A stretch of 64,000 bases of DNA from Flammeovirgaceae bacterium UBA4465 (lineage in GTDB: Bacteria > Bacteroidota > Bacteroidia > Cytophagales > Cyclobacteriaceae), in contig CAJJBF010000009.1 of the NCBI GenBank assembly GCA_905182375.1, forward strand, positions 417,984 through 481,983, in the 5' to 3' direction. A program made the position numbers and the translations under genes. Positions 15,629 to 36,583 of the stretch are shown here, piece by piece. Each line of letters starts with the position of its first letter. The first letter of the stretch is position 1. The notes below the pieces were generated by a model. It saw only the letters and a list, made by a program, of their open reading frames with translations. It was not told the DNA's origin and made no database searches.

Positions 15629-16987
15629 CTATCGAATGCGCGTGAGTCCATGAATATCAACCTCTATTTCTGGGAATGGGAAAACTAATAGCTCGCTATA
15701 TTCCATATATGATTTAGTCCCTCCTCCTTCGTCCGCTGTTTGTATGATCTCCCGTTTTAGTCGCTTCGTATTCAAAAAGTGGTCTCCTAATTCAAAAGCA
15801 AGCTCTTTCGTTCTATCATCATAAAGCTCAGTCAATGCATTATTTACCGTAGGAATATATGCCAAATTAGATGCTGGATTGCCCCCTCTTATTCTGAGTA
15901 AGTTGATGTCATCCACGTCCTGTTGAACCACGGCATCACTCTTCATTATATTGGCCTCTGCTCTTGTAAGATACATTTCTGCTAATCGGATATAACGATA
16001 ATCCATTTGATCTGTGGTGTACTTTCCACTCACATAAATCATAGTAGAATCTTCATTTGCACTATAAAAAGAATTGAATCTATCATCATAGGGATCCATA
16101 ATCATGGATGCTGCACTGCCATCAAGATTCAAACTATAATTCCCCTCCAGCAAGGACGCCTGATAAACCTCCCATATCCTGGCAGAAGGTGATAGCCCCG
16201 ATCCATCTATCGTATTAAATTTTATAGTGAAAATATTTTCTGAAGAATTCCCTTTGGGGACAAATGCATCGGTGACCGATGAGCCAAGACTGAACAATCC
16301 ACTTTCAATGACCTCATTTGCACGTGCATACGATGAGTCGTATTTTTCATGATAAAAATATATTCTTGCCGAGAGTGCGGTGGCAGCCATATAATTGCTT
16401 TCTCCAGAGTTGACCAAAAAATAACTTCTTGCTGATTCGATATCAAATTCTATTTGATCTTGAACCGCCAGAGTAGTCGCAGTTTCCAGCCTATCATCTG
16501 TACCCACAGGTGCGAGTACCAAAGGAATGGTATATCCCGTTAAGGGGAGGTTCCAATAATTATTTAATTCAAAATAGATTAGTGCTCTCAAAAAATGCAT
16601 ATCCCCTAAAATTGCATTTTTTTGTTCCTGTGAACCCTCCATTGAGACTAGATCACTCACAGCTACCTTATTCAAAGAAGCCAATGCTGTGTAACCTGAA
16701 GTATACATCCATGATGTCATGGACGTTGAGATTTCATGATCATAAAACGGGTCATATTCACCCCTATTACGATTCAAAACATCTCTCATCATGCCTGCAG
16801 CGTAGAGGGCAGGTTGCGAAACAAAGGGTCGAATAGCTCCATAAGCTCCATAAATTAACCCTTGCATGGAAGCCAGATCAGTCAACTTATCCGCTGATAA
16901 GCCGGTGGGTGGTGTCTCCTCCAAAAAATCATTCTCACATGAAAATAAAAGTAATGGGAGGATTAGTATGGCAATAATCTTTCTCAT
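15629..16987 (-). CDS. SusD/RagB family outer-membrane nutrient-binding lipoprotein
   Basis: Surface lipoprotein that caps the SusC transporter and binds the glycan. The lipobox is LPLLLFSC, followed by ENDFLEETPPTGLS, the usual SusD beginning. Also present are the TPR-like repeats, LRALIYFELNNYWNLPL, the RYIRLAEMYLTRAEA motif and VDDINLLRIRGG near the C-terminus. Start chosen at ATG 16987 (MRKIIA); ATG 16996 is possible, and the frame upstream of it belongs to the susC end. It follows susC by about 10 bases. The reading frame is intact although the adjacent susC is broken in five places. Confidence 0.9.
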   Translation of the reverse strand: MRKIIAILILPLLLFSCENDFLEETPPTGLSADKLTDLASMQGLIYGAYGAIRPFVSQPALYAAGMMRDVLNRNRGEYDPFYDHEISTSMTSWMYTSGYTALASLNKVAVSDLVSMEGSQEQKNAILGDMHFLRALIYFELNNYWNLPLTGYTIPLVLAPVGTDDRLETATTLAVQDQIEFDIESARSYFLVNSGESNYMAATALSARIYFYHEKYDSSYARANEVIESGLFSLGSSVTDAFVPKGNSSENIFTIKFNTIDGSGLSPSARIWEVYQASLLEGNYSLNLDGSAASMIMDPYDDRFNSFYSANEDSTMIYVSGKYTTDQMDYRYIRLAEMYLTRAEANIMKSDAVVQQDVDDINLLRIRGGNPASNLAYIPTVNNALTELYDDRTKELAFELGDHFLNTKRLKREIIQTADEGGGTKSYMEYSELLVFPFPEIEVDIHGLTRIR

Positions 16988-16997
16988 TGTTATCATA

Positions 16998-19900
16998 TTA
17001 TAAATCAATTGAAACTCCAAATAATATGGTTTTGGCTTGTGGTGATTGTTTAAATGCTGAACCCGCTCCCACGTTATTCGATGACCTACTCTGTACAACT
17101 CCTGTAAATTCTGGATCCCAGAAAAAAACTGGCGCTTTGGTTATAGTAAAAAAGTTAACCAACTTAACATAAACATTAAGTCCCTTTATAAATGAATTAC
17201 CAAGTTTTGTTCTATACCCAAGGGTTACATCCCGAAATCTCATATAATCTGTTTTATAAAGAAACTCATCACTCCATGGCCACACCACATTATTTGTGGT
17301 CAACCTGGATACTGTAGCATCATCCCCTGGCGAATTCCAAGCATCTAGCATATGTGTAGATGGATTTATTTTATTATTACCAAAAGATGCATTAAGTTGT
17401 TTGGTGTATCCATCTGCAAATTCCTGTCCTGTAGCAAAGGTGATAAGCAGGCTGGCATAAAACTTCTTGTAAGTAAAGCTATTGTTTATCCCCCCGGTAA
17501 GCAAAGGCCATGGATTTCCAATAGGTTTTTTTTCTTCATTATTAAAATTATCAAAACTATAACTGTTCAATCACTTCAGAGTATAAGTATAAATTACCTT
17601 CCAAATCGTAGTAGGTATCTTCTCCTGATTCAACATCTACTCCTCCCCAAGCTACCCCTTCTATTACTCCCACAGGATGCCCAGGAAAAATAGAAGTAGA
17701 CCCAAGTCCTGCACTTGAAGATAAGCCATCCTTTATCAGTTCATCCCCAAGTGAAACGACCAAATTTTTATTGTGATTTAAAGTAATGTTTGTCTCCCAA
17801 GTAAAATTGGGTTTGGCAATAATTAAGCCATTCACCATGAAATCAAATCCTTTGTTACTTAGTTCCCCTATGTTTTTAGTTACCGAACTCACTCCAGTCA
17901 TTAGTGATACTGGGAAAGGAAGTAATAAATCGGTCGTAACTTTTTCATAATAATCGAATTCTCCACTGATTCTACCATTAAAAATTTCCCAAGTAATTCC
18001 AAGGTTTAGTTGTGATGTTAATTCCCAACCTAGTCTTGGATCACCAATATTTCCAAGGACGATTCCCGTATTTCCATTATAGATGCTGGTATTGTAAGTG
18101 GAGAAGGAACTGTAATCTCCAATTTCAGAATTTCCAACAACTCCGTAACTGGCTCTAACTTTGAAAAAGTTCAACGTACTGGCCATTGGACCAAAAAATG
18201 ACTCATCACTCACTATCCAGCCCAAAGACACTGCAGGAAAATAGCCCCATCTATTCTCTACACCAAATCGTGAACTTCCATCCGCACGCAAACTCGCAGA
18301 CAGCAAATACTTTTTGTTGAAGTCATAATTAATTCGACTTATTAATGATTGAAAGGAATATCTTGTTTCAGAACCAGATGCATTTATAACGGCGGCATCC
18401 TGCGGTCGAGTTAATGTAGAATTAAGAAAAGTATCCCCAAAAACAAAATTAGTCCTCGATCCAGAAGACTGCGCCTCTGTGGCTGCAAGTATATCCAAAC
18501 TGTGACTTCCAAAAGTCTTTGTATAATTTAGAATATTTTTCCAATTCCAGGATGATCGCTGACCAGAGACGGTAGAGGAAACAGTTCGATTATGATCTGT
18601 AATTCTGCCATCTCGATAATGAAAATCATTGTTAAATAATAAATTAGTGCCTATCTCTGTTCTAAAGGTAAGATCTTTGGTAATCGATGCTTCTCCATAC
18701 CAATTACCAAGAATCTGATTACTCTTCAAATTGATATCCCTGTAGATTATTCCAGCCAATGGATGTTCATTGGTCAAATTGAAGAATGTTCCATCTTCTT
18801 TTCTAACGGGCCATATCGGTAGCATTTCGAAACATTACTCACCCCTCCACTTACACTGGCATAGGGTCATCATTTATATAAGTTAACATGACCTTCCCTC
18901 CCACTTTAAAACGGTCTGATATTTTATGATCAAGGTTTAGGCGCGTACCAATTTTTTGATAATCATTCCCTATCAAAATAGTCTCCTGATTTTTAATGTT
19001 GGCACTCAAGTAAAATGTGGTTTTATTACTTCCACCCACAGTTGGTCTAACTTGAACTTTTCCAATCTGTAGTACTTGATCAATCCAATCCGTATCGGTA
19101 GCCCGTGCTTGCTCCTCTGTCAGGCCATCAACTAATACCCCACTCTTGGACCAAAAATCATTTATGTCATTACCAGAATTAAACCACGCCTTTTGAGCAA
19201 GCGTCAGATATTGTTCTGAATTCAAAAGAGGGATTCTGTGTGTCGCATCTGAAAACCCTACCGAACCCGAAACTGTTATTTTAGTAGCACCCACTTTACC
19301 TTTTTTTGTGGTAATCACAACTACGCCATTGGCTCCGCGTGAACCATAAATAGCCGCTGCACGCTGCATCTTTCAATATTTCTATAGACTCAATATCGGC
19401 GGGATTCAAACTGGCTAATACATTGGTATTTGCACCTTGTTGTAAATTCCATTCTGCAATTGCTCCTCCCGGTTGTGAACTGCTTATTTCCCCACTCTCC
19501 ATGGGGATCCCATCTATCACATACAAGGGCTCACTGTTTGCACTGGCTGAGGAGGTCCCTCTAATTCTTATTCTGACTGCTGATCCTGCAAGGGCACTAC
19601 TGGTCGTTACCTGGACGCCTGCCGCTATGCCTTGCATACCCGCCTCAAATGAATTCGCTATGGCCCCATTGATTTTTTTACTATCAACAGTGGTAATGGC
19701 AGTAGAAATATTTCTTTTGATCTGGTTACCATACCCTATCACTACAATCTCGTCAAGCTGCTCAACATCTTCCTCTAAAACGACATTTACAACCATCTGT
19801 GTGCCCACCAAAATTTCCATAGTTTTATACCCGATGAATGAAAAAATGAGGACCGTTTGATCCCCCGGGATATTCAGTCGGTAATTACCATCAATATCGG

Positions 19901-20379
19901 TAATCACTCCAGTTTTTGATTCCTTGATTAACACATTCACGCCAATAAGCAATTCTCCTTCTTGGTCGACTACTTTTCCGGTAATCGTCTTATTTTCTGT
20001 TATGACAATGGTAACCTCTTCAGCCTGCTCATTGCTGTAGTTGGATTAGGTCAAGTTGGTATTTACTTGTTAAATGAAGCCCATTTTGGTGCGAAATATC
20101 TCGTAAAATTTCATAAACAGAACGCTCTACATAACTCCCTGAAAATTCCTTCCCATTCACATCATTTTCATCAAAAACAAAGCTAAACTGAGTTATTTCT
20201 TCAATTTTACTAAATACTTTGGCGAGATTATTTTGATTAAATTCTACGGTGACCATCACCTCTCTTACACTTTTTGCTTTGTCTTCGGCGATATAAGACA
20301 CACCACTAGCCATTCCACCTAAATTTAACCAAAGCCAAGAAAATAAAAAGACAATAAAGGTTCTAAAATAATATTTCAT
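16998..20379 (-). pseudogene. SusC/RagA TonB-linked outer-membrane transporter, five frame lesions
   Basis: Full-length SusC of about 1,127 codons, no longer readable in one frame. Pieces in order: signal peptide and STN domain (20029-20379); carboxypeptidase-D-like domain, TonB box region and plug start (19296-20010, with LDEIVVIGYG and RIRGTSS); plug end (18851-19369, IYGSRGANGVVVITTKKGK); barrel (17557-18825); and last barrel strands (16998-17570). Lesions lie near 20030, 19370, 18845, 18830 and 17565. The one at 19370 is an extra T outside any homopolymer. No large deletion is seen. The STN domain matches the FecR gene immediately upstream, meaning TonB-dependent signalling to an anti-sigma factor. 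It would import oligosaccharides across the outer membrane together with SusD. Confidence 0.85.
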
Positions 20380-21482: not shown

Positions 21483-22900
21483 TTATTCATTCAACTCATT
21501 GAAGTATTCATTATAAATAGCTTGATATGCCGGCGCTATTGAGTCAATTAAAGAATGCTTAATCTTCGTTTTTTCAATATGAAGATTCACAATATTCATC
21601 ATTTCATTAACCTTTTGAACATTTTTATCAGCCAAATTAAACTGTTCTGAAGGATCTTGGTCAAGGTTGTACAATAAAGGCATATCAGCATCCGTAAATT
21701 CCTCCATGGATTTGGGTTTTTTATGAAGATTTTCCAAGCACCCGTCCGCAAGGCCATCAGTTCTTGTTGCTGGTAATAGTAAATGGGATGGTCTAGGGCT
21801 CTCCCTTTGGTAAAGCTCTCTGATAAATCCATCCCGTCCAGTTCCTCTTTTTGATACTCAATCCCTGCCATGCCTAAGAACGTGGGTAACAGGTCCAGCG
21901 TACTCCCTACCCCATCAAAAATCTTATTTTCACCGATAGTTCCCGGCATCCAAGCAATGGTTGGCACGCGAAAACCCCCTTCCCAAGGCGAGCCTTTTTT
22001 TCCTCTTAGCAGTCCAGCTGACCCTCCATTAATTCCTACCTAGCGCCAAGGACCATTATCACTGGTAAAAATGATTAATGTGTTTTCATACTTATTAGTT
22101 TCTTTAGTTTGTCTAAAATGGCACCTACACTCTTATCTAATACTTGAACCACATCTCCATAAAGACCCCTTTTACTTTTTCCTGCATCAAGACTGTCCAC
22201 ATACAAAGGTACATGAGGAAAGGTCTGCGGCATGTAGAGAAAAAATGGCTTATTTTTATTTTTATCGATGAATGCCAGCGCTTTGTCGGTGTATCTTTTC
22301 GTCAATTGACTTTGGTCAGGTTCCAACTCAATAATTTCTGTACCTTCCATCAATGGCAATGGAGGAAAGGCCGCTTTGGCGTAATCCCAATTATTGTTAG
22401 GTGGTGACATGTCGTTGGAATAAGGTATACCGAAATAATAATCAAACCCATGTTGAGTAGGTAAAAATTCTTTTTTATGTCCTAAGATGCCATTTCCCAA
22501 TACATGCTGTTGCATAACCAGCTTTATTGAGCATACTTGAGATGGTCGGCTCAGTGGTTGGAAGACCTCCGTATGAATCTGGAAACAAAACCCGACGCGC
22601 ACCAGCCATCCCAATTTTTGCCGGTAACTTCCCTGTAAGCAGACCTGCCCGACTGGGGGTACATATCGAGGCAGCCACGTAGAATTGCGTCAGTTTCATC
22701 CCTTCATGGGCCATTTGATCAAGATTGGGTGTGTGAATGGTGGGATGTCCAAAACTACTCAAATCACCGTAACCCAGATCATCGGCAAAGATGATGATAA
22801 AATTAGGTGGGTTGATCTCTTCTACGGATGGCTTGCAGGCCGAAAAGCAAACGCAAAAAAGGACAAAGATTGTCATCCAGTGATATTGCTTAGTTCTCAT
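21483..22900 (-). pseudogene. S1-type sulfatase, three frameshifts and an in-frame stop
   Basis: Lipoprotein sulfatase (lipobox FSAC) with the formylglycine site Cys80 in CTPSR and metal ligands ADDLGYGD. Pieces: 22475-22900 (to CIGKWHL), 22075-22500 (HKKEFLPTQHGFDYYFG), 21740-22090 (TSDNGPW to the C-terminal strands) and 21483-21737. Lesions are near 22500 (an extra A between CTT and GGACAT), near 22095, a TAG at 22040-22042 inside the conserved GPW-GGSAG segment, and near 21730. It is closely related to the intact sulfatase at 32552-33934. Its ATG overlaps the stop of the GH13 gene (ATGA). Sulfatases remove sulfate esters from glycans in the periplasm. Confidence 0.85.
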
Positions 22901-25516
22901 TCCAATGTGATTATGTTAATATCATCCATTATTTTCGGACTGTTTGAATTCCCTCCCCCATAGGACCAAGTTGTTCTCGTCTTATCTATGGTCCTAGGGT
23001 AGGTGGCGCTTCCGCTCCAGGTATTGATGTATAGATTAGTATTTTTCAATGTAGTCGGGTTCCCCAACATTTTAGCTGGAAGCGTGACACTTATTTTATT
23101 TTGCTCGTAATCAACATTTACAAATGGCGTCATGATAGATTTTCCTAATTTTTCAGGACCCGAAATTAGAGGATGACCTTCAAATGCTTCTATTCCAAAG
23201 CCACCCAAAGCAAATCGATAATCCCACTCACCCTCATTAGGAAAAAAAGCATTTTGAAAAGGTAAAGATTTCACTCCTTCCTGTTTATCGGGCATATCAA
23301 TATAAATATTCAATAACACATGATCAAATCCATTTGGAGGTATCCATATTTGAGTGATTTCTGACATAGTAATTTCTAAGGTTAGATTATTACCGGTAAG
23401 GGAGACGTCCACAGCCTTTATATCTTGTTGGTGACTAAAGCTTCTATGACTAGGATAAGTGTATTCCCCATTGGGACCGTAGTCATCTTGGATTTCATCC
23501 TCAAAATGGAATAAATGTTTAGTGGATAAGGCCAAAGTAAAATATTTAGATGAGGTTATTAAAGATCCCTTATCATCATAGCCAATCGCAGTTATCCTGT
23601 GTTTTCCATTCATCAAATTACTCAAGCTTAAATCGTGGAACCAGCTATTCTGATTCCTATTTGTGATGGGTAATAAATGCTCATAGTCTCCATCTATTAC
23701 CAAACCCATGTTTTCGACTCCCATTGCTTTTCCACTTAATTGAATGGCTGAAGTAGTCAAAATTTCCGAAAAATCATTATTTAATCTCTATGGTTCCATG
23801 CAAATCGAACTTTGTCTGCGAATGGTCAGTATTCACATAAACTTGTGCACTTTTAGCCTCTAAAATCATATCTATAATTCTATCATGGGAAACCGTTAAA
23901 ATTTCATTTTGGGCTCCAATACTGTATTTGGAAACATAATTTCCTGGATTAAATGTGGGTACACTTAATCCATCAACCAATTGAAGTTTTTCTGAAGTAT
24001 TAATCAAAATCAATGCAGAAACATCATCTAATCTCATTTCGTATACGAATAATCCAGGACCATAAGAATTGTCTCTTACTACTTTAAGTTGGCCTCTTCG
24101 AAACACTTCGTTTGTCTTTCTTAGTTTTACTAGGCTCTGAACAAATTTAAAATAGTCACTTTCTGTATCAAAATAATCGCGGTCGGGTGATCCCGTACCC
24201 CCCTTAAACATAGTTTGACGCATTCCGGTTAACTCTTGTTCGGTTCCATAATATATTACAGGAACTCCTGGAATGGTCATGATGAACAACAATGCTTGTC
24301 TCATGGTCTGACGATCAGATTTAGCGAGGAGTCTAGGCGCATCATGATTATCAATGAAATTAAGCAACTGATCAGACCGTTGAAAATTTTCTTGGATACT
24401 CTTGATCCTGAAAGAGAGGGTACTGGTAGGTTTTTTCTCAATAAAAACTCGGTTAATAGCTGTGTTTAATGGAAAATTTAATATCGAATTCATTTCAGGT
24501 TTGTTCTTAGTTCCTAAATATTTTCGTGCTTCTTTCGTTCCCGAATGATCAAAAGGTTTGGGGAAAAAAGCAACCTCTCCAGCAGTTAAAAAATGTTGCT
24601 TGCCCTGCTGCTTTGCCAAAAGATCAATACCGAGATGCTCCCCCTCTTTTTTATGAAGAAAACTATGCCAAAAATCATGTTCGACCATATGAGGTGTATC
24701 AAATCGAAATCCATCAACCCCCACCTCTGTAATCCAGTAGCCAAAATTCTCTCTCAAAGCATCACGAACCAAAGGATTGGACGTATTGAGGTCATCCAAA
24801 TCGGCAAATTGAAATTGCGTTTTTTGAATCGTATCTGAATGGTCAGTGAAATTTGGTGCAAAATGATAAATGCCCAGTTCACGGTCTTCCTCTTCTCTGG
24901 CATCATTATGGTTAAAAGGATATTGCATGGGCTGTTCAACGTCATGCAGCTTAAAGTTTTTTGATACATCTTCTGGGTCATAGGGCCCATCATAAGTATA
25001 AAAATCTCCAAAATGATTTACTACGACGTCTTGAATAAGATACATTCCTTTGGAGTGCAAAGTCGCCGACAGCATCTTATAATCCCCTAAATCTCCTAAG
25101 TGTTTATCTACTTGATCTAATCTACTCGCCCAATATCCATGATTTCCAGTTCCTGTATGTTGTGGATTTCGCCATTGATTGGCTACTGGTGGTGTGATCC
25201 AAACTCCTGTTACACCTAGCTCTTGAATATAATTAATCTTTTGAGTAATCCCTTTAAGATCCCCTCCATTCCAATAAGCTCCATCTCCTTTTTTATACTC
25301 ACCTGCACCTTGATCATTATTGGTTGAATCTCCATCCATAAATCGATCGGTCACGATAAAATAGAGGATTTGATCTTGCCAAGAAGGAGAAGGGACATGA
25401 AGATATTTTTGTAAATTATCTTTATTAATACCAGGACCCTTATCAGAGCCACAGCTGAAAGAAATAATAGTCAGAAGAAAAAAAGATAAATGAAAATATT
25501 TTTTCATATTGTTCAT
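22897..25516 (-). pseudogene. GH13 alpha-amylase-family lipoprotein with DOMON-like C-terminal domain, one frameshift
   Basis: Lipoprotein (lipobox ISFSC) with a complete GH13 barrel in 23777-25516: nucleophile Asp273 in FRFDTPH, acid Glu314 in TAGEV and Asp392 in FIDNHD. It resembles neopullulanase/SusA-type surface amylases acting on alpha-1,4/1,6-glucans. A second frame, 22897-23760, encodes a glucodextranase C-like (DOMON-like) sandwich domain with the marks NIYIDMPDK and LGGFGIEAFEG. The two frames join near 23780, where the first ends HGTIEI and the second reads LNNDFSEILTT, so one fused gene is inferred. It is the head gene of the SusC/D operon, opposite a SGNH hydrolase gene. Confidence 0.75.
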
Positions 25517-25601: not shown

Positions 25602-25651
25602 GTTTCCCATAATTCGTCATTAAGTTGACAAAAAACAATATATTCTTAATC

Positions 25652-26375
25652 ATGGATAAAAAAGTCTATCCTTTTTTATTTTTTTTAACCCTCATAATAG
25701 ATACTGAATATGCGGTAAGTCAATCCACCTTAGAGCTGCTTTATCCCCCAGAAAATACTGTTGTAGTATACCATACTGAATGGACAGAAAATCATTATAA
25801 AGAGAGAATCAAAGAATTTAAGGAGCATCCCTTATCAATGGGGGATATCGTTTTTATAGGTAATAGTATCACTGAGGGAGGTAAAGATTGGGGAGCTAAA
25901 TTAGGCATTGATAATGCGGAGAATAGAGGTATTTCTGGAGATGTTACTGATGGGGTTCTTTTAAGACTTGGAGAATTAATCAAATATAAACCTACGTCCA
26001 TTTTTGTCATGATTGGCATCAATGACTTATCTCAACCTGCACTATCAAAAGGAAATCCCCTCACCAGATTATGTTGTCGAAAATTTACTTAAAATTACGA
26101 CCTTGCTCCATGAAAAATTACCCAATACACAGATTTACGTTCAAACACTCTTACCAACGGCGAAAGATTTCATCAATAAGAATGTAAATATTGTGAATAG
26201 CGCAATGAGAATACATCAATCAGATGGAATTTATCATTTGATTGATCTTAACCCACATTTTGCTGCCGAAGATGGGTTAATGAGCCCTTTGCTCACTTAT
26301 GATGGCACACATTTGAATGAGAAAGGGTATGCACTTTGGGTCAGCATTGTAAAGCCCTATATCACCCAAAAATAA
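25652..26375 (+). pseudogene. SGNH/GDSL-family hydrolase, one frameshift
   Basis: Secreted esterase-type hydrolase of about 240 residues. A signal peptide is followed by block I FIGNSITEGGKDW (catalytic Ser), block II GISGDVTDG, block III IGINDLS (Asn) and block V DGTHLNEKG (Asp-His). The first frame stops at 26092 after switching near 26045, and the second frame 26013-26375 carries ALSKEIPSPDYVVENLL through block V. The break follows GINDLS and separates the Ser from the catalytic His. The TTG at 25625 is an alternative start; ATG 25652 is preferred. Relatives are platelet-activating-factor acetylhydrolase-like or carbohydrate deacetylases. It is the only plus-strand gene of the PUL and is transcribed away from the GH13 gene. 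Confidence 0.75.
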
Positions 26376-26462: not shown

Positions 26463-26495
26463 CCGTTAATTATTTGATAATAAAAAAATTAACGG
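26463..26495. repeat. 9-bp inverted repeat at the end of the sulfatase-esterase gene
   Basis: Arms CCGTTAATT (26463-26471) and AATTAACGG (26487-26495) enclose an A-rich spacer and span the stop codon, in the convergent junction with the SGNH gene. The U-run would lie in the loop, so it is not a classical terminator, but it may protect the mRNA end. Confidence 0.25.
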
Positions 26496-28760
26496 CTCAT
26501 GAAACCGTCGATGCCAAGCGGCTCCGCTATGATCTGCTCCAGAAACTTTTTTAGTGATCCAATTTATACCCTTTTTGTACCCCTTACGATGCATCGCTTG
26601 GTCTACTTCCTTTTGATAAGGCTCATAACGTGCATCAAGGCCTTTTGTCCCAAAGTCAAAATACAGCTTATGTGTTGTCGGATCTGGAAGGTTTTTTTCA
26701 AAATAATCAACAAATACCCCCTCCAAGGGTAGCCAGTGCGTAGACAAACAGGCAGCGCCACCATATATTTCTGGGTATTTACTGATGGCGTAAGCAGAAA
26801 TCATGCCTCCCATACTAGAGCCCGCAATAAAGGTATGCTCCCGATCGGCTAATGTTTTAAAATGAGTATCGATATAAGGCTTTAACTCCTCTACCATAAA
26901 TCTCAAATAATTATCAGAATGCATAGGAATATTGCTGAAATAATCGTCTTCCATTAAATTCAGCCTTCTCAATACCTCTTCCCGAGGCTCTTCAGGCATG
27001 TATTCAGCTCGACGCCTTATGCCCGTGTTAAAAACGCCTACAATAATGGCCTTTTGGTTAAAGCCTGTCTCATTTAAACTGTCTAAAATAAAATCAACAT
27101 CCCAACCTCTTTCTAATCCCTTCTTACCAAACCCTGCATTATTTGGATGAAATATGTTCTGCCCGTCAAGCATATAAATGACCGGAAGTCGGTCACTATA
27201 AGAAACATTGACTGGAAATAATACCTCAATGGGTCTTGGAATTACCCATTTGGAAGGAAAGCTATCAATTCTTAAGGTCGCATACCGATTGCCTTGTCTG
27301 ACAAAATCTGGGGGAAAAGGAGCGCCACCATCATAATTATTTTGTTCAAAAATTTCTCCATTTGTGATTTGACGTGGATCTTTGGTTTTAATTAATTCAG
27401 CACTCAGTAAGTTTTGAAGTTGTATTTTGATGGCTGAAGATGTAGGGTTATCGAAAATGTTTTCTAACTGATAGGGGTCCTTTTTGATATCATACAACTC
27501 GAAGGCTGGTCTTTTGCCAAAGGCTTTTTCAAACAATCGCTGATGTTCTATATCATCTTGCCGATGATGGATCATGTATGCTCTAGTAGGCCCTCCATCT
27601 ACATCTGAATAGTAAGAAGGGAAAAAAGAAGCTTCTTCATAATTAGGCGTGCCTGCAGGCCATCTATCAGGAGAAAAATTTTTGATCAATAGGTATTCCT
27701 GTGTTCGAATAGCCCGCATGGGATAACCTCCCCAGTCTCCGTTTTCTTGTCCAGGTACATGACGTTCGCGACCAAAAAAAACTGCTTCTCTGAGTTTATA
27801 AGAAGAGTCTTCCAACAATTTAACCAAACTCTTACCTGTCATCTCTTTTGGAATTTCCAATCCGGCCCAATCTAAAAACGTAGGTGCTAAATCGGTCAGG
27901 CTGATGAGTTGATTGTTTCGAGCTACTGCTTGCTTAACATTCTTTCCAGACCATATGATCAAGGGCACACGTGTCCCCAAATCATATAAATTTCCCTTTG
28001 CTCTGGGGAAAGGCATACCGTTGTCACTGGTTACGATGATGATGGTATTATCAAGGAGTCCTTTAGATGTTAAATGGTTGACTAGTTGGGTGACTTCGTC
28101 GTCTAAATCCTGTACCTCCTTTAGGTAGTCTGCCATATCAGATCGAACCACGTCACTTTCTGGATATACCTTGGGTAGCGATATTTTGGAAATATCCACA
28201 CCTACTTGTCTTCCGGAACCTTCCTCATAACCTCTATGCGGATTATAACTTCCAAACCAAAAACAAAAGGGTCGATCGGGGGCTACTTGTCCAGTAAAAT
28301 CCTTGAAGGAGTCGAAATATGCTCCTGCTGGGTTTGTGGGTAAATGATCGTGTGAACCAGGACCCCAACCTTTATCTGCAAACCCTACAGCATAGCCAGC
28401 ATCCTTCATTATGCGAGTGTAAAGCGGAACTTCAGCAGGCAATCTTCCAAATAAATTGGCTCCTTCTCCCAATCTCCAAAAATGTTGACCAGAAAGTACA
28501 GCAGCCCTTGAAGGGGTGCATGAGGGGGCCGAAACAAAGGCCTGTTCAAAAACGACACCTTCCTGGGCTAACCGATCCATGGTTGGCGTCCTCACAGAAC
28601 TATCTCCATAAAATCCCGCATGAGGGTAGCTCCAATCGTCTGCCATAATAAGGATAATATTTGGGGCATTTTCTTTGATTGTATTCTGCGAATTACAAGA
28701 GAATAATACTAGCAAAAACACTAGAAGAAAGAAATACTTTGTCCACTCTTTTAGTTTCAT
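26466..28760 (-). CDS. Sulfatase fused to a C-terminal alpha/beta-fold esterase
   Basis: A 764-residue bifunctional lipoprotein. The start is ATG 28760 (lipobox VLFSC), 2 bases after the upstream stop; upstream in-frame codons belong to the neighbouring gene. The N-terminal S1-type sulfatase (about residues 35-460) has metal ligands ADDWSY, formylglycine Cys81 in CTPSR and TSDNGMP. The C-terminal 270 residues form an esterase-D/CE1-like (PF00756) domain: LPVIYMLDGQN, nucleophile Ser in GSSMGG (about residue 649), and the late GADHSGAAWHRRF with the catalytic His. The combination suggests removal of sulfate and an acyl or acetyl group from the same glycan. Both active sites appear complete. 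Last gene of the second operon. Confidence 0.85.
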   Translation of the reverse strand: MKLKEWTKYFFLLVFLLVLFSCNSQNTIKENAPNIILIMADDWSYPHAGFYGDSSVRTPTMDRLAQEGVVFEQAFVSAPSCTPSRAAVLSGQHFWRLGEGANLFGRLPAEVPLYTRIMKDAGYAVGFADKGWGPGSHDHLPTNPAGAYFDSFKDFTGQVAPDRPFCFWFGSYNPHRGYEEGSGRQVGVDISKISLPKVYPESDVVRSDMADYLKEVQDLDDEVTQLVNHLTSKGLLDNTIIIVTSDNGMPFPRAKGNLYDLGTRVPLIIWSGKNVKQAVARNNQLISLTDLAPTFLDWAGLEIPKEMTGKSLVKLLEDSSYKLREAVFFGRERHVPGQENGDWGGYPMRAIRTQEYLLIKNFSPDRWPAGTPNYEEASFFPSYYSDVDGGPTRAYMIHHRQDDIEHQRLFEKAFGKRPAFELYDIKKDPYQLENIFDNPTSSAIKIQLQNLLSAELIKTKDPRQITNGEIFEQNNYDGGAPFPPDFVRQGNRYATLRIDSFPSKWVIPRPIEVLFPVNVSYSDRLPVIYMLDGQNIFHPNNAGFGKKGLERGWDVDFILDSLNETGFNQKAIIVGVFNTGIRRRAEYMPEEPREEVLRRLNLMEDDYFSNIPMHSDNYLRFMVEELKPYIDTHFKTLADREHTFIAGSSMGGMISAYAISKYPEIYGGAACLSTHWLPLEGVFVDYFEKNLPDPTTHKLYFDFGTKGLDARYEPYQKEVDQAMHRKGYKKGINWITKKVSGADHSGAAWHRRFHEPLIFLLSNN

Positions 28761-28762
28761 TT

Positions 28763-30493
28763 TTAATTCCATTGAAGTGTATCGCTTGGAGCAAATCCAA
28801 TGCGGTGCGCAATGACCAAAATGGGCTCTTCTTGATCTACGCCTATTGGCGCTGTGTAAATCTGCCAACCCAGCCCCTCTTTCAAATCTTGGAGCCGTTT
28901 ATAGCCTATCGAAGCCCCCTCAGTTTGACAAGTTATTTGTAATTCTCCATTTTCAACATTAAGTACCGGATTAGCCGTTAAGGGTTGAATTTTATCAGGC
29001 CAAAAGGTATTGATTAATTCTTGTTCAGGGATATGTCCCATATCTGAAACATCATGCATCCATGTTTCACACTCCCTCCTTAGTTCACTCAATATTCCCG
29101 AAAATTGAGGATCCTCGGCTAAATTATTTAATTCATGGGGATCCGCATGCGTATCAAAAAGTTCCTCATTAGGTTTGGTTTTACGAAACCACAAGGCCTG
29201 TTTTTCGTTTAATGAATCAATCGCATTTAGTCTTAATAACTCCTGCATACTGGCCATGTTTTCACGGTACGACAAGGGTAAGTAATAAGGCTTTTGTGGT
29301 TGGAAATTCTTTAAATATTTGAACCTTTTGTCTCGAACGGCTCGAATCATATCATAAGTTTCATCAAATCGATCCGCTGCTGCATGGATAAATTTTCTTT
29401 CGTCAGCAACTTTGAACTTTCCTTCAAAAGCAAGGCCTTGCATATATTCAGGGGGTTTTATCTCAGTCATGGACAATAAGGTCGGAGCAAAATCCACAAA
29501 ACTGATCAGTCTGTTATCGATTTCACCCGAACGAAATTTGTTGGGATATCGCACAATCATGGGTACCTGTAAGCCTGCATCATACAACAATCTTTTTTGT
29601 CTAGGTAGTGGTCCCCCATGATCGGTAAACCATACGATAATCGTGTTTTCCAATAAGCCATCTTCCTCCAGTTGAGTGAGAATATTTCCGACATGTGCAT
29701 CCATCCTCACAATATTTGAATACATTCTTCTCACGTCATTTACCACTTTGTCTGTATTGGGAAGATAAGGTGGAATGACTACGGAAAGATTCTCGTCAAC
29801 CAAGGGTAAGAATTTATTTTCAAATTGCTTCCACCAACTTTTCATTTCTCTTGCAGGAGGAAAGACCTCCAAATCATGTATTTTCTCAACAGGATTCCAT
29901 AAACTAGATTCGTGAGTAACCATGAAGCTAAACATGGAATAAAACGGTTTACCGATCGGTCGGTTTCGCCAGTGTGCATAATTACTAGATTCATCCCATG
30001 CCATTTTAGAGTGGAAAAACTGATAATCCTCTTTGGCGTTATTGGTGGTGTAATAGCCATTTTCACGTAAAATCTCACTGACCATTTTTACCTCTGCTGG
30101 CAAGACTGCCTCATAATTAATAATTCCCATTTTTTTGGCTGCCGGTTGTTGGTATAAGGTACGCATATGATGTGCTCCGATACTCGAAGGATACATCCCG
30201 GTAGCCAATGCGGCACGGCTTGGAGAACATACCCCAGATACACTAAAAACATTGTTATACCTCACTCCTTCAGCTGCTAAGCGACTCAAATGAGGAGTTT
30301 TAATTGTTGAATCTCCAAAGGGAGGAATATAAGGCCCCAAATCTTCAGCTACCAACCACAAAATATTCATCTTTTCAATTGATTCGATGGATTTATCGGT
30401 TTTTGTTTGACACCCCATCATCAATACCAAAGAAATAATTATTGATACATGAAGTTGCATTTGATTCTTATTTATCACTTTCTTATTCATCAT
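28763..30493 (-). CDS. Sulfatase with C-terminal chitobiase-like domain (heparan N-sulfatase-like)
   Basis: A 576-residue lipoprotein (lipobox LMMGC) of the S1 sulfatase superfamily. Formylglycine site Cys89 lies in CSPSR, with metal ligands AEDLG near residue 50 and FTDHGGP later. The AEDLGPYIPPFGD start, VSGVCSPSRAAL and AHHMRT context resemble heparan N-sulfatase/sulfamidase-type enzymes. The last 75 residues (NPVLNVENGELQITC to the end) look like a chitobiase/beta-hexosaminidase C-terminal sandwich. It overlaps the end of the upstream acetylesterase gene by 11 bases and lies 2 bases before the sulfatase-esterase gene, so these are translationally linked. The true sulfated sugar is unknown. 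Confidence 0.85.
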   Translation of the reverse strand: MMNKKVINKNQMQLHVSIIISLVLMMGCQTKTDKSIESIEKMNILWLVAEDLGPYIPPFGDSTIKTPHLSRLAAEGVRYNNVFSVSGVCSPSRAALATGMYPSSIGAHHMRTLYQQPAAKKMGIINYEAVLPAEVKMVSEILRENGYYTTNNAKEDYQFFHSKMAWDESSNYAHWRNRPIGKPFYSMFSFMVTHESSLWNPVEKIHDLEVFPPAREMKSWWKQFENKFLPLVDENLSVVIPPYLPNTDKVVNDVRRMYSNIVRMDAHVGNILTQLEEDGLLENTIIVWFTDHGGPLPRQKRLLYDAGLQVPMIVRYPNKFRSGEIDNRLISFVDFAPTLLSMTEIKPPEYMQGLAFEGKFKVADERKFIHAAADRFDETYDMIRAVRDKRFKYLKNFQPQKPYYLPLSYRENMASMQELLRLNAIDSLNEKQALWFRKTKPNEELFDTHADPHELNNLAEDPQFSGILSELRRECETWMHDVSDMGHIPEQELINTFWPDKIQPLTANPVLNVENGELQITCQTEGASIGYKRLQDLKEGLGWQIYTAPIGVDQEEPILVIAHRIGFAPSDTLQWN

Positions 30494-32546
30494 TTATATC
30501 GGTTCTAAAAGGAGCGGCAGGTAACCCGTCCAAATTATACAAGTTCGCTTCAACATAGGGAAGCCAAGCATATCTCACAAAAATGGGCGTTTTGACCTCA
30601 TCAGCCCATACGATTACTTGATTATTAATTATTTGGGCCTCTGCTGGATAGAATATTTTGTCTGATCCTGCCATTTCAAAATGCACCAGCTTCTTTGTGG
30701 TATCTAACCCACTGCCCACATGATCAAAAGAAATGATGGCATTAGCACCGTCAAAAGTCACCTCTTTGTACAAGGGACCAGAATATACCAAAGACGTATC
30801 TCCATAGTCTTTAGCACGTGCCCATAATGCCAGTCGTTTGCCCACGTCTTGTTTATTGTGGGTATGTATTTTATCATTATCCCCAATATCAATAGTTACC
30901 GCCATTCCCACATTTTTTTCTTTTAATGTAAAAAGTTGCGCCTCCCTTAATTTGGTAACCTCATGACTAAAACCACCATATGATGACAACTGAGCATAGT
31001 AAAAAGGAAAATCTCCTTGCCCCCAATGAGACCTCCAACTGTTAAAAACGGCTGGGAATATGCTTTTATACAAAAAAGATCGAGAAACATTGGTTTCTCC
31101 TTGGTACCATATAGCCCCTTTAATAGCAAAAGGAATCAATGGGGCAATCATTCCATTGTACATAGATGAGGGTGTAAAAACAGTCATTCTAAGAGATAAT
31201 TCTCTCACTTGTTCGTCATCGCCAATGACATAAAAAGTGCTATTAAAAAGTATGGCGGAACGCTTAAATTTCCAATAATCCTGCAATACGATGAGCTCCT
31301 CATTTTGATCATTTAATATCTTGGGAGTCACTCCTTTTTTAAATCCTGCCGTTCCCCAAACATCGATGACTCGAACAGCTAATATGTTTTTACCTTTTTT
31401 GAGCTCTTTTGAGGATATTTTATAGACTACATCACCTTGATTAGATCCCCAATGCTCTTTTCTTCCAATCAATTTCCCATTCAAAAAAGTGCTATTTAAG
31501 TGTTTTATGGGCCCTAAAAATAGGGCTAAACTATCTGAACGAATATCCTCTGAATATTGAAATTCTTGACGGAACCAAACCACACCATTAATATCATAGC
31601 CCTCAAAATCATAGCCCTCAAAATCATCACCAAAGACTTTTGAGAGATTAGTATGAGAGACCGTATCCCATGCTGAATCGTTATAGTTTAAGTTTGCGTA
31701 GGGTTTTGTTTTATCACTTTCAAAACGGAAGGCTGCTGCTCCAATCAATTCGTCTCTTGGAATTTGCTTCATCTCACCTACCCAATCATTGAAGGGCCCA
31801 AATTCGCGAGCAGTCAGTGTTAATTTATCTTTTGCTTTTTCAAAACCTTGTATTTTCTCCAAATAATCAGGTGCAACCCAAGCTTGGGCCGAAGAACCAT
31901 CCCAACTCGCATCGATCAATCCAATAGGCGTTTCTATATTTTCATGCAGCTCTCGGCCGAAAAAATACAAAACAGCAGAAAAATTTGGCACAGTTTCCGG
32001 TGAACAAATAGCCCAATTTCCATCTAATTGTTCAAGTGACTCATAGGTCTGTACTTTGTTTACGCGGAATAATCTAATTTCGGGATGATTTGCATTCATA
32101 ATTTCATTTTGCGAATCATTCAAGGAATCTCCTCGGTCTGTCCATCCGTTCATTGGCATTTCCATATTGGATTGTCCTGATCCTACCCATACCTCGCCAA
32201 ACAATAGATCGTCGAGAAAAATTATTGAATCTACAGACGAGATTTTTAACCATTGAGGTTGGGCATCTGTTTTTGGTATTTTCATCGTGGTTTCCCATTT
32301 TCCTGAATCATTACTGTAGGTATGGAATTGATCACTCCATGATGTAGCAATGGTCACCTCAGTATTGGGTCTGGCCCAGCCCCAAATAGGCGCATCTACC
32401 TCTTGCTGCAATACCATGTGATCGGTAAATATATCTGCCACTCTTAACTCCCCCTTTTGATGACTGCATCCCAGATTCATCAAACATAGAAGCCCTATGA
32501 GATAAAAAAAACATGTATTGAAATTACTGTTTGAACTATATGCCAT
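30483..32546 (-). CDS. Sialate O-acetylesterase-type (SASA) lipoprotein with jelly-roll insert
   Basis: A 687-residue lipoprotein (lipobox MNLGC) of the SGNH-type carbohydrate acetylesterases annotated as sialate O-acetylesterase. The first domain opens with FTDHMVLQQ and a beta sandwich. The catalytic Ser126 lies in VGSGQSNMEM, and later AIKGAIWYQGETNV is the second conserved block. A beta-galactosidase-like jelly-roll of about 150 residues is inserted between the two. In PULs these enzymes remove O-acetyl groups from polysaccharides such as xylan; sialic acid is not implied. Two perfect 15-base tandem units (31594-31623) encode DFEGYDFEGY within the insert. It lies 5 bases after the sulfatase gene. 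Confidence 0.85.
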   Translation of the reverse strand: MAYSSNSNFNTCFFYLIGLLCLMNLGCSHQKGELRVADIFTDHMVLQQEVDAPIWGWARPNTEVTIATSWSDQFHTYSNDSGKWETTMKIPKTDAQPQWLKISSVDSIIFLDDLLFGEVWVGSGQSNMEMPMNGWTDRGDSLNDSQNEIMNANHPEIRLFRVNKVQTYESLEQLDGNWAICSPETVPNFSAVLYFFGRELHENIETPIGLIDASWDGSSAQAWVAPDYLEKIQGFEKAKDKLTLTAREFGPFNDWVGEMKQIPRDELIGAAAFRFESDKTKPYANLNYNDSAWDTVSHTNLSKVFGDDFEGYDFEGYDINGVVWFRQEFQYSEDIRSDSLALFLGPIKHLNSTFLNGKLIGRKEHWGSNQGDVVYKISSKELKKGKNILAVRVIDVWGTAGFKKGVTPKILNDQNEELIVLQDYWKFKRSAILFNSTFYVIGDDEQVRELSLRMTVFTPSSMYNGMIAPLIPFAIKGAIWYQGETNVSRSFLYKSIFPAVFNSWRSHWGQGDFPFYYAQLSSYGGFSHEVTKLREAQLFTLKEKNVGMAVTIDIGDNDKIHTHNKQDVGKRLALWARAKDYGDTSLVYSGPLYKEVTFDGANAIISFDHVGSGLDTTKKLVHFEMAGSDKIFYPAEAQIINNQVIVWADEVKTPIFVRYAWLPYVEANLYNLDGLPAAPFRTDINDE
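31594..31623. repeat. 15-bp tandem duplication inside the acetylesterase gene
   Basis: Two adjacent identical copies of a 15-base unit (TCATAGCCCTCAAAA on the plus strand) keep the frame and duplicate the pentapeptide DFEGY. It looks like a recent slippage duplication in a loop of the jelly-roll insert. Confidence 0.7.
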
Positions 32547-32551
32547 ATTTA

Positions 32552-33934
32552 CTACTCATCAATACCGATGGGACGGGCCTCGGCTTTTATTTTTAATTCA
32601 AAAGTCTCACCCGCTTTTTTCAAACTAGCTGCCCGCTCAGGAAATTGAGTTATAAGATTATCCTGTTCTGAAATATCACTAATTAAATTATAGAGTGCCT
32701 CCTCGTGATAGACCTCTTTTGTTTTCCCATTAATACCATCTATTCCTCGTTCGATGACGACACCTCCCTTGTGTCCAACTACATACTTCCACTCACCTTT
32801 ACGAACAGCTTTGATCTTACTTCCTCCAAAATAATAAAAAATTCGTTTTTGTAATTCGTTCGTTTTTTTCCCTTGGAGACTTGATAAGACATTTTGCCCA
32901 TCAATTTTATTTTCAGGAAGCCGAGCATCTGTTATCGCAATCAATGTAGGCAAAATATCCATTGTATGGATTAAATCATTATTTACGCTTTCGGGCGGTA
33001 TTACTCCTGGCCAAGACATAATGGCCGGAACTCTAAAGCCGCCTTCCCAAGCATCAAACTTTCCCCCACGCAATACTCCAGCACTGCCCCCATGATTGCC
33101 ATAAGAAAGCCAAGGTCCGTTATCAGAAGTGAAAATGACTAAAGTGTTTTCCAGTAACCCTTGGTCTTTTAACTCTTGGATAATCGCCCCTACTGATCCG
33201 TCTATTTCTTCAATCACATCGCCATAAAGGCCTCCTTTTGAAGTCCCCTCAAAATTGGTTGATGCGGCAATTGGAATATGAGGCATGGTATGAGCTAGGT
33301 AAAGAAAAAAGGGCGCTTTACCTGCCTGACTTTTAATGAAATCAATACCAAACTCCGTATATCGTTGGGTCAACAGCGATTGATCAATATCTACTTCCAC
33401 CACTTTATTATCCTTTACTAAGGGCAGTTCTCCTTTACTCATATCATTAGAATAAGGCACACCAAGATAGCTATCAAAACCGTGTTGAAGGGGTAAGAAT
33501 TTTTGCTTATGACCTAAATGCCATTTGCCTGCCATCGCTGTGGTATATCCCTTTTGTTTTAAGAGTTCCGCTATCGTTTCTTCATCAGGATTTAAGCCAA
33601 CATTAGGATTACTCCCCCACGCTCCATTCGGAAAAAGTACGTTGGGCAAACCCACACGATCAGGGTAACAGCCCGTGAGCAAGGCTGCCCTTGAAGGAGT
33701 GCATACTGAAGAGGCAACGTGGAAGTCTGTGAATAGCATGCCCCTTTTAGCTAATGCATCCAAATGGGGTGTATAAATAGTCTCAGATCCATAACTGCTT
33801 AAGTCTCCATATCCTTGATCGTCTGTGAAAATAAGTACAATATTTGGCTCCGATTGTTTTTTAGGCTTCAAAAAAATATATAAGCTGATAACAACAGCAA
33901 CTAAAATGATGAGAGATAAATTTATTTTTTTCAT
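32552..33934 (-). CDS. S1-type arylsulfatase
   Basis: A 460-residue sulfatase anchored by an N-terminal hydrophobic segment (LSLIILVAVVISLYIFL). Start chosen at ATG 33934 (MKKIN); ATG 33964 adds ten less typical residues. The active site is complete: metal ligands FTDDQGYGD, formylglycine Cys78 in CTPSR, GKWHLGH, PHIP and TSDNGPW with GGSAGVLRGGK. No cysteine lipobox is visible, so it may stay membrane-anchored in the periplasm. It shares long stretches with the broken sulfatase at 21483-22900, for example YSNDMS, GLYGDV and SVGAI. It lies upstream of the acetylesterase gene in the second operon. Confidence 0.88.
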   Translation of the reverse strand: MKKINLSLIILVAVVISLYIFLKPKKQSEPNIVLIFTDDQGYGDLSSYGSETIYTPHLDALAKRGMLFTDFHVASSVCTPSRAALLTGCYPDRVGLPNVLFPNGAWGSNPNVGLNPDEETIAELLKQKGYTTAMAGKWHLGHKQKFLPLQHGFDSYLGVPYSNDMSKGELPLVKDNKVVEVDIDQSLLTQRYTEFGIDFIKSQAGKAPFFLYLAHTMPHIPIAASTNFEGTSKGGLYGDVIEEIDGSVGAIIQELKDQGLLENTLVIFTSDNGPWLSYGNHGGSAGVLRGGKFDAWEGGFRVPAIMSWPGVIPPESVNNDLIHTMDILPTLIAITDARLPENKIDGQNVLSSLQGKKTNELQKRIFYYFGGSKIKAVRKGEWKYVVGHKGGVVIERGIDGINGKTKEVYHEEALYNLISDISEQDNLITQFPERAASLKKAGETFELKIKAEARPIGIDE

Positions 33935-34059
33935 AAAAAATTCATTTAATATTTTTTGCCCCATTCGTGAAAAACGCGGTCATTATTTCTGTCTGCGATA
34001 GCGAAATCAAATCAGTCGATAGCATAAAAATGAAATACTTAAGTCTAAACACATTAAAG

Positions 34060-34986
34060 TCAATCAATTTTTTCTGTTTTGATGAAATATCTGCTTTTGA
34101 AAAAATTTACGGTCTCTGATTTAACATCATATTGCCAACTTGGATAATCATGATTCCCCCCTTGAACAGGAATAAATTTTACTTCGCTCCCATTTGACAT
34201 GAGCTTTTCATAAAGTAATTCACTTTGACAAATAGGAACTACCTTATCAAGGGTACCATGCATGATAAGAAATGGAGGATCCTTTTCATCCACATATTTG
34301 ATTGGATTTGCCAATGCTCCTAAGTCCTTATTTTTTTCAAGACTTCCCCCTAAAAATCTCATTCGATTGGTTGCATCGCCATTCCAATCCTCAGTACAGC
34401 TAACCATAAAATTTGTAGGACCATACCAATCTACCACTGCATCCACATGGCTACTTTCACCTAAGAAATTGCCCAATTGACCTTCAATTGATATTTCTTT
34501 ATCTCCTTCAGCCACCTGATCAAGACCCCCGCTGGTACCCATCAAGGCAGCCAGATGGCCTCCAGAGGAATATCCCATGATCCCAATAAATTTTTTATTG
34601 AGATTGAATCTTTCTGCGTTACCTCTTATAAACCTCACCGCTGCTTTAACATCATGAATTTGAGCAGGAAAATTACTACAATAGGAAGACCTGTGATTCA
34701 TTGAAACTACAGCAAATCCATTTTTTAACAGATCCTCACCCTGTTCACCATATTTATAAGCCCAAAACTTATTATTATTATCTGTCCAAGCGCTCCCTGC
34801 GATCGTTACTACTGTTGGAAAGGGGCCTGCTCCTTGAGAAGGAAGATAAATGTCTAATAGATGACCCAAATCATCATCTCCTACATAATTAATGTTTTCC
34901 CATTTTGGAACTGCTTGTGCTATTGAGTGGCATTGATTGGAAACCAATAATCCGAAAATTGAATATTTAATAAAGAGCTTAATCAT
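34060..34986 (-). CDS. Secreted alpha/beta hydrolase (BD-FAE/CE10-like esterase)
   Basis: A 308-residue esterase with signal peptide (ending HSIAQA). It has an alpha/beta fold with the nucleophile elbow GYSSGG (Ser140), the oxyanion region TIAGSAW, the acid in HGTLDKVVP and the histidine in GGNHDY. Relatives are carbohydrate esterases or feruloyl/acetyl esterases often encoded in PULs. It sits between a serine hydrolase gene and a sulfatase gene with gaps of 19 and about 125 bases, so it is probably part of the same transcript. The removed acyl group is not predictable. Confidence 0.8.
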   Translation of the reverse strand: MIKLFIKYSIFGLLVSNQCHSIAQAVPKWENINYVGDDDLGHLLDIYLPSQGAGPFPTVVTIAGSAWTDNNNKFWAYKYGEQGEDLLKNGFAVVSMNHRSSYCSNFPAQIHDVKAAVRFIRGNAERFNLNKKFIGIMGYSSGGHLAALMGTSGGLDQVAEGDKEISIEGQLGNFLGESSHVDAVVDWYGPTNFMVSCTEDWNGDATNRMRFLGGSLEKNKDLGALANPIKYVDEKDPPFLIMHGTLDKVVPICQSELLYEKLMSNGSEVKFIPVQGGNHDYPSWQYDVKSETVNFFKSRYFIKTEKID

Positions 34987-35005: not shown

Positions 35006-36583
35006 TTACTCTACTTTTTGTCCAGTGATAGGGAAAACTCCCTTTTTAGAGGTATATCCAATATGGTTAAATTTAGTTTCCCAAAAAAATTCATTGTCCT
35101 CAAAATTAAATATATAGTCCACACTAGCGGTAGACTCATAAAAGTACATTCTTAACAAATATTGCTTTGGACTAATCCAAGCTCCATTTGCTGCAATATT
35201 TAATGCTTGCCCATCAAGATAGTCCAACCCTTCTGTGAAGGGAGGTTTCAAGAGCAGCATATTTTTTAGGTATTTGTCGGAACCTATTCTAATCATTTGC
35301 TTTTTGTCATCATATGTTATCTCAATACTATGATTAACCCCTTTTAAATTCAATTTAATCCTATTGGCTCCTAAAGGATTTTCATTGAGTAGATAAGCAG
35401 AAGACTTTTTGCCATATACTGAACTGCCCTTATTACCTGAAATTTTAGGTAGTTGCAGCGCATCAAGTTTATTATTCAAAATTTGATAGTTTTTGGTATC
35501 ATTTGGCAAGGCAATCTCTTGAAGTCCCGGTAATAAAGTCTCCCAAGCAATATTCATGATTTGTCCCATATTATAGACTCCTGCAGTCGTAGCTATCACT
35601 AGATTATATTGGGGCAACACCAAACAAAATTGACCAAAAGTACCATCTGCACGAAAACTGTCATGCCTAGAACGCCAAAATTGAAATCCATAACCTTGGG
35701 CCCAGTCATTGTTTGGATTACTACCACTGGATGCTTGTTTACTAGTGGCCAGTTCAATCCAATTTTCAGATAAAAGTTGCTTCCCTTCCCATTGCCCCTT
35801 TTGTAAATAAAATTGGCCTAGCTTAGCGATATCCTCAGTGGTAATACTTAAACCCCAACCTCCTATGTTAATCCCCATAGGGCCACTTTTCCATTCTGGT
35901 TTTATAATTTCCAACGGCTGAAAAAAACGGCTATCCAAATAATCTACAAGTTTTTCGCCTGTCACTTTTTGAATGATTGCAGACAGCATATAACTAGCCA
36001 TGGAATTATATAAAAAATGAGTTCCGGGCATAAATTCAACTTCATGAGATAAAAAATACTTAATCCAATCACTCGTTATTTCTTCATAACCACTTTTGAT
36101 TTTCCTAAAAGGCAACGGTTCACTTCGATGTCCCGTATTCATAGTTAACAAATCTCGAATGCGCATCTCTTTCAATTGCCAAGACAACGTATCTGGTACT
36201 CTATCTGGAAAAAAAGAAATGACCAAATCGTCCAATGAAATGCGCTGCTCTTGAACTGCAAATCCAACGGCTGTTGAGACAAAGCTTTTACTCAAAGACA
36301 TCATGTTATGTGATGAAGTAGCTTGATAGGGGTCCCACCAGCCTTGTGAAACTAATTTACCATGCCTGATAATCATAAAGCTATGTGCTGCGTCTATTTC
36401 TGCCTCCAACCGTTCAATAAACTTCAATATATTTAATGAAGACATTCCTTGTGCTTCAGGTGTGGATGTTTCGAAATAACTTGTTTGTGCATGCCCTGAG
36501 GTGGCATAGAATAAAAACAAAATAAACAATAGATTTAATCTCAACTTTTTATTTAAATATTTTCTTTTCTTTTTATTTTTCAT
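35006..36583 (-). CDS. Serine hydrolase of the beta-lactamase/penicillin-binding protein-like family
   Basis: A 525-residue exported protein (signal segment LNLLFILFLFYATSGHAQ) with the class C beta-lactamase/esterase fold. The SxxK motif is Ser96-Leu-Ser-Lys99 in MSLSKSF and the Tyr-Asn-Ser motif lies in FLYNSMAS. A C-terminal extension of about 150 residues forms a beta-rich domain. Such proteins in PULs may act as esterases on glycan substituents rather than on antibiotics. It follows the GH3 gene by 41 bases. The start is ATG 36583; the N-terminus is unusually Lys-rich (MKNKKKRKYLNKK). Confidence 0.75.
   Translation of the reverse strand: MKNKKKRKYLNKKLRLNLLFILFLFYATSGHAQTSYFETSTPEAQGMSSLNILKFIERLEAEIDAAHSFMIIRHGKLVSQGWWDPYQATSSHNMMSLSKSFVSTAVGFAVQEQRISLDDLVISFFPDRVPDTLSWQLKEMRIRDLLTMNTGHRSEPLPFRKIKSGYEEITSDWIKYFLSHEVEFMPGTHFLYNSMASYMLSAIIQKVTGEKLVDYLDSRFFQPLEIIKPEWKSGPMGINIGGWGLSITTEDIAKLGQFYLQKGQWEGKQLLSENWIELATSKQASSGSNPNNDWAQGYGFQFWRSRHDSFRADGTFGQFCLVLPQYNLVIATTAGVYNMGQIMNIAWETLLPGLQEIALPNDTKNYQILNNKLDALQLPKISGNKGSSVYGKKSSAYLLNENPLGANRIKLNLKGVNHSIEITYDDKKQMIRIGSDKYLKNMLLLKPPFTEGLDYLDGQALNIAANGAWISPKQYLLRMYFYESTASVDYIFNFEDNEFFWETKFNHIGYTSKKGVFPITGQKVE

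Follow-up and report, generated by a model that had tools for sequence, protein, structure and literature searches.

Many marine polysaccharides bear both sulfate and ester groups, and enzymes that clear the two together are, to our knowledge, poorly known. A multimodular sulfatase is described in P36 of Formosa agariphila (GH78-S1_25), the domains of which act in consecutive steps (PMC8511951). Within subfamily S1_8, the galactose-2-sulfatase S1_8A is specific for galactose-2-sulfate, and another member displays 2-O activity on xylose-2-sulfate (PMC12549532). The known S1_8 sulfatases and SGSH (N-sulfoglucosamine sulfohydrolase; PDB entry 4mhx) are single-function enzymes.

In the stretch of DNA analyzed here (the window; 64,000 nucleotides), which comes from a marine bacterium, a single gene joins a sulfatase to an esterase. 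The gene lies on the minus strand at positions 26466-28760 (ATG at 28758-28760 and stop at 26466-26468), where the open reading frame extends over 764 residues; the plus strand across the same interval is full of stops. The product begins with a lipoprotein signal (residues 1-22; 28695-28760, minus strand) that ends in the lipobox LFSC. Pfam matches were obtained for Sulfatase (PF00884; residues 33-300; 4.9e-43), SGSH_C (residues 257-362; 1.2e-19), and Esterase (PF00756; residues 510-678; 1.2e-16; 61.7 bits against a cutoff of 22), all well above the Pfam cutoffs. An earlier note on this DNA had proposed one 764-residue lipoprotein, giving no strand, with a complete S1 sulfatase site and an esterase-D/CE1-like domain, and each of these elements could be located: Cys22 in the lipobox, Cys81 in CTPSR, Ser649 in GSSMGG (residues 647-652), and His744 in GADHSG. 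The most likely reading is a periplasmic lipoprotein with two activities, which would strip oligosaccharides of sulfate (probably 2-O) and of acyl groups ahead of glycosidases.

The seam between the two parts was delimited by alignment to relatives in which each part occurs on its own. In the numbering of the fusion, stand-alone sulfatases stop near residue 477 (..FDxYPY, in some cases with GG), and stand-alone esterases, past their own leader sequences, start near residue 496. Two whole enzymes have thus been joined: a sulfatase part (residues 33-477; 27330-28664, minus strand), delimited by Pfam, alignment, and a PDB profile match to S1_8A; a linker of about 18 residues (about residues 478-495; 27276-27329, minus strand); and an esterase part (residues 496-764; 26469-27275, minus strand), delimited by Pfam, alignments, and matches to CE1 feruloyl esterases. 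The linker reads GGAPFPPDFVRQGNRYAT in the window protein and GGTPLPDPFVKENGRYAT and GGFIYAPNFKRHGRKFAT in two distant fusions, and the three are recognizably homologous. The possibility, raised in the earlier note, that the region after residue 470 is a C-terminal subdomain of the sulfatase was rejected, as the stand-alone sulfatases extend no further than about residue 477.

The earlier note had also allowed for a missing stop codon. An artifact in which a missed stop or misassembly fuses two neighboring genes was considered and rejected. Frameshifts in the window are the observation that speaks for such an artifact. Five neighboring genes are frameshifted here and open in relatives: the S1 sulfatase S468 (21504-22900, minus strand; several frames here, 468 amino acids in relatives), a GH13-Glucodextran_C gene (22897-25516, minus strand; split here, intact with 871 to 872 amino acids in relatives), a GDSL-type esterase (25625-26375, plus strand; 240 to 249 amino acids in relatives), SusC (17782-20337), and another sulfatase (41834-43232). 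The cause is either erroneous indels in the assembly or a locus that is decaying in this strain. The fused frame itself reads through without interruption in seven genomes of the genus, as it does in two distant ones that share the homologous linker; these independent genomes refute a missed stop or misassembly, and we assign an artifactual origin a negligible probability.

Seven genomes of the genus, that of the window included, carry the intact fusion, the six others at 84 to 98% identity. Of the 10 genomes of the genus that were searched, 3 lacked a match at that threshold, including one that is 99% complete, and the fusion locus is therefore accessory. A fusion specific to the genus was first suggested by samples of its own family (344 genomes) and order (341 genomes); this view was corrected by two genomes of another family in the same class (G847 and G792; sample of 298 genomes), which encode the fusion at full length with 56% and 54% identity, respectively. 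In total, the fusion is found in nine genomes of three genera. The signal peptide with its lipobox cysteine is also present in G847 and is not clear in G792. Otherwise, only separate sulfatases and esterases were found in these family and order samples, in 395 genomes of the phylum, and in 130 and 16 genomes of two further families; the samples overlap, all lie within the bacterium's own phylum, and for the large ones the best few candidates per genome were scored. Viral contigs yielded no useful relatives of the fusion, and among the 431 plasmid records with matches, none had a match spanning 80% of the query.

In the sulfatase part, the expected active-site residues are D41, D42, C81-T-P-S-R85, K130, H175, D246, N247, and K255, with position 247 being N or H in relatives. 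The CTPSR motif is invariant among the sampled relatives, and the main catalytic residues are likewise invariant in the fused sulfatases and in the stand-alone ones sampled. At residues 130 to 132 (28365-28373), the usual S1 K-x-H reads K-x-W (K130-G-W132) in all sampled relatives, stand-alone ones included. A profile alignment shows that S1_8A likewise lacks the His of K-x-H. With W132 in its place, that chemical step may differ. Two homologues of the formylglycine-generating enzyme (FGE) are encoded in the source genome.

Profile comparison with the PDB returned S1_8A as the best relative (E value, 2e-66), followed by SGSH (1.9e-58), both over the whole sulfatase part. Because the GlcNAc-6-sulfatase 5g2v scores like SGSH in this comparison, membership in S1_8 is not decisive. 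Given that S1_8A, which acts on galactose-2-sulfate, and SGSH are the closest solved relatives, our best guess is that the sulfatase part is a 2-O exo-sulfatase.

For the esterase part, the candidate triad consists of S649, D709 (or D702), and H744. Across the set of fused and stand-alone sequences, S649, H744, and D702 are invariant and D709 is nearly so. Among solved enzymes, CE1 feruloyl esterases come nearest, with weak similarity (best E value, 2e-6). AlphaFold models were unusable, with pLDDT values of 45.6 for the whole protein (15 sequences) and 44.6 for the esterase part (7 sequences). Relatives of this part also occur in other fusions, namely with a ChaN-like region (L047:5997-7994), GH16 (L048:6562-8277), peptidase M28 (L050:1171-2886), and an M48-like region (L051:5392-7263). 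The esterase part might not act on the glycan at all, serving as a binding or scaffolding domain or hydrolyzing another ester: PF00756 is a broad family, its nearest solved enzymes are only weakly similar, and some relatives are joined to peptidase-like domains. However, the invariance of Ser649 and His744 and the near invariance of Asp709 count against this reading, as does the dN/dS of the esterase part, which is as low as that of the sulfatase part. Between the window protein and its relative in L013, dN/dS is 0.104/0.893 (about 0.12) for the sulfatase part and 0.054/0.450 (about 0.12) for the esterase part, which indicates that both parts have been kept by purifying selection. We therefore consider a nonglycan role for the esterase part unlikely.

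The surrounding genes describe a polysaccharide-utilization locus whose order is conserved in the genus: GH3, beta-lactamase-fold hydrolase, BD-FAE, sulfatase, SASA, sulfatase, fusion, GDSL (on the opposite strand), GH13-Glucodextran_C, and sulfatase, with GH97, SusC/D, FecR, and GH43 nearby. The sulfatase gene directly upstream of the fusion (S576; Sulfatase plus SGSH_C; 28763-30493) ends so close to it that the ATG of the fusion gene lies 2 bases past the S576 stop. Further along the same minus strand, Pfam identifies a SASA-type acetylesterase with a sugar-binding-like region (30483-32546), an S1 sulfatase (32552-33964), a BD-FAE esterase that stands alone here (34060-34986), a beta-lactamase-fold serine hydrolase (35006-36583), a Xyl3A-like GH3 with PA14 (36625-39237), and a GH97 (39376-41409). 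A GH43 with GH43_C2 (12673-14133) and the SusD-like lipoprotein of the same locus (15629-17098), both on the minus strand, lie on the other side of the fusion. The flanking esterase genes reported in the earlier note thus correspond to the BD-FAE, SASA, beta-lactamase-fold, and (frameshifted) GDSL-type genes.

With regard to the glycosidases, the GH43 is near arabinofuranosidases and beta-xylosidases, the GH13 resembles amylases, the GH3 is Xyl3A-like, and the GH97 is nearest in the PDB to alpha-glucosidases. Together, these four families point to a heteroglycan that would contain both alpha-glucosyl and pentosyl units. A solved alpha-amylase (PDB entries 43wj and 9x8f; 478 bits) closely resembles the GH13 partner; a literature search found no paper on this amylase.

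The GH13-Glucodextran_C gene lies near the fusion in all three genera, being near or beside it in G847 and G792 (49 to 51% identity). In the sample of 298 genomes from the other family, this gene is found at about 50% identity or above in 4 genomes: G847 and G792, with the fusion, and G784 and G837, without it. The cluster of G784 and G837 comprises a GH43 (66% identical to that of the window), a related sulfatase, a beta-lactamase-fold hydrolase, a sulfatase, and GH13-Glucodextran_C, together with orthologues of S576 (65 to 67%) and S468 (61 to 62%). In G784, the related sulfatase is joined to no esterase. In G837, by contrast with this unfused cluster, a 790-residue protein (L161:3117-5489) carries a BD-FAE esterase (residues 63-228), of the family that stands alone in the window, ahead of the sulfatase (residues 288-578), with GHSAGG at 148, GYGHS at 261, and CTPSR at 336. 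In the tree, its sulfatase part and the G784 sulfatase group together (support, 1.0), apart from the first-fusion clade. The sulfatase of such a cluster has therefore been joined to an esterase twice, to different esterases and in opposite orders, with the second case resting on one genome, G837.

The fused sequences themselves form one clade with respect to stand-alone relatives in both the sulfatase-part tree (support, 0.993) and the esterase-part tree (support, 1.0), as expected if a single old fusion was followed by divergence. After that event, either transfer between families or much loss would account for the present distribution.

Whether the two parts share a substrate is the question on which the readings divide. 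The domains could act on different positions or molecules, in which case no common substrate motif would be involved and the fusion would serve only to secrete the two together, anchor them to lipid, and keep their dosage at one to one. A simple linker joins the parts at their natural ends, and neither part needs its partner elsewhere: stand-alone sulfatase relatives occur near other sulfatases (further sulfatases in 10 of 29 loci) and esterase relatives near GH13. A GH13 gene was present within ∼7 kb in 9 of 50 loci of stand-alone or otherwise joined esterase relatives, mostly directly adjacent, versus 0 of 29 loci of stand-alone sulfatase relatives (Fisher P = 0.023, a guide only, as the loci are not independent draws). 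This pattern suggests that the esterase brings a link to alpha-glucans and the sulfatase a link to sulfated glycans. A second, independent fusion in a matching cluster is nevertheless hard to explain through dosage alone, and we hold separate action to be a doubtful, though real, contender. The G837 protein provides the best evidence that the predicted sulfatase and esterase activities belong together. It also strengthens the earlier note's proposal that sulfate and acyl groups may lie close together on one glycan.

On balance, we think it probable, with some reserve, that the fusion is a lipid-anchored, periplasm-facing bifunctional enzyme of the polysaccharide-utilization locus and that both sites act on the same oligosaccharides. 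In this scheme, Cys81 would be converted to formylglycine by an FGE of the genome, and the N-terminal S1 sulfatase, nearest to S1_8 and probably 2-O specific, would act at the nonreducing end. An acyl group would come off the same oligosaccharides through the CE1-like esterase at the C terminus (Ser649-His744, completed by Asp709 or Asp702). With sulfate and acyl gone, the GH13, GH97, GH3, and GH43 enzymes of the locus could then cut. The activity of both sites, their common substrate, the order of the steps, and the chemical position are all points that we infer.

That such a fusion was made twice in equivalent clusters indicates a specific pairing, one that a single recombinant protein would suffice to test. 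It also flags a cluster that probably targets a glycan bearing sulfate as well as acyl groups, and it suggests that a single kind of glycan loses its sulfate and ester groups together. A broader and more tentative proposal is that fusions of sulfatase and esterase constitute a convergent enzyme type that recurs and is directed at an undescribed marine glycan, with sulfate and acyl groups on the same or neighboring residues of an alpha-glucosyl and pentosyl backbone, so that a doubly capped residue would be cleared in one encounter.

A full-text literature search of partial coverage found no description of a sulfatase-esterase fusion. Compared with P36, the present protein likewise joins a sulfatase to a second glycan-active enzyme; however, the partner in P36 is a glycoside hydrolase rather than an esterase, and its sulfatase belongs to another subfamily. 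A further arrangement was observed in genome G1042, where a single chain of 1,558 residues (L084:174-4850) combines a related sulfatase with GH92 and GH88. With S1_8A, S1_8B, and S1_8C of Pseudoalteromonas distincta U2A (PDB entries 9bb9, 9bbd, and 9bba) and SGSH, the fusion shares the Sulfatase plus SGSH_C composition, and its SDNG-x-PFP motif is like that of SGSH; its identity to these single-function enzymes is low, and the subfamily is not proven. AmCE1/Fae1A (5cxu) and the XynZ feruloyl esterase (1jjf) have in common with the esterase part the Pfam Esterase domain and a GxSxG nucleophile followed by Asp and then His, but the similarity is weak (2e-6 and 5e-5), and the esterase part here sits behind a sulfatase. 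The BD-FAE-sulfatase of G837 likewise places an esterase and a related sulfatase on one polypeptide in a matching gene cluster, but its esterase is of an unrelated family and N-terminal, and its origin is independent according to the tree. On the literature covered, what would be new is the architecture; the component families, S1 sulfatase and PF00756 esterase, are known.
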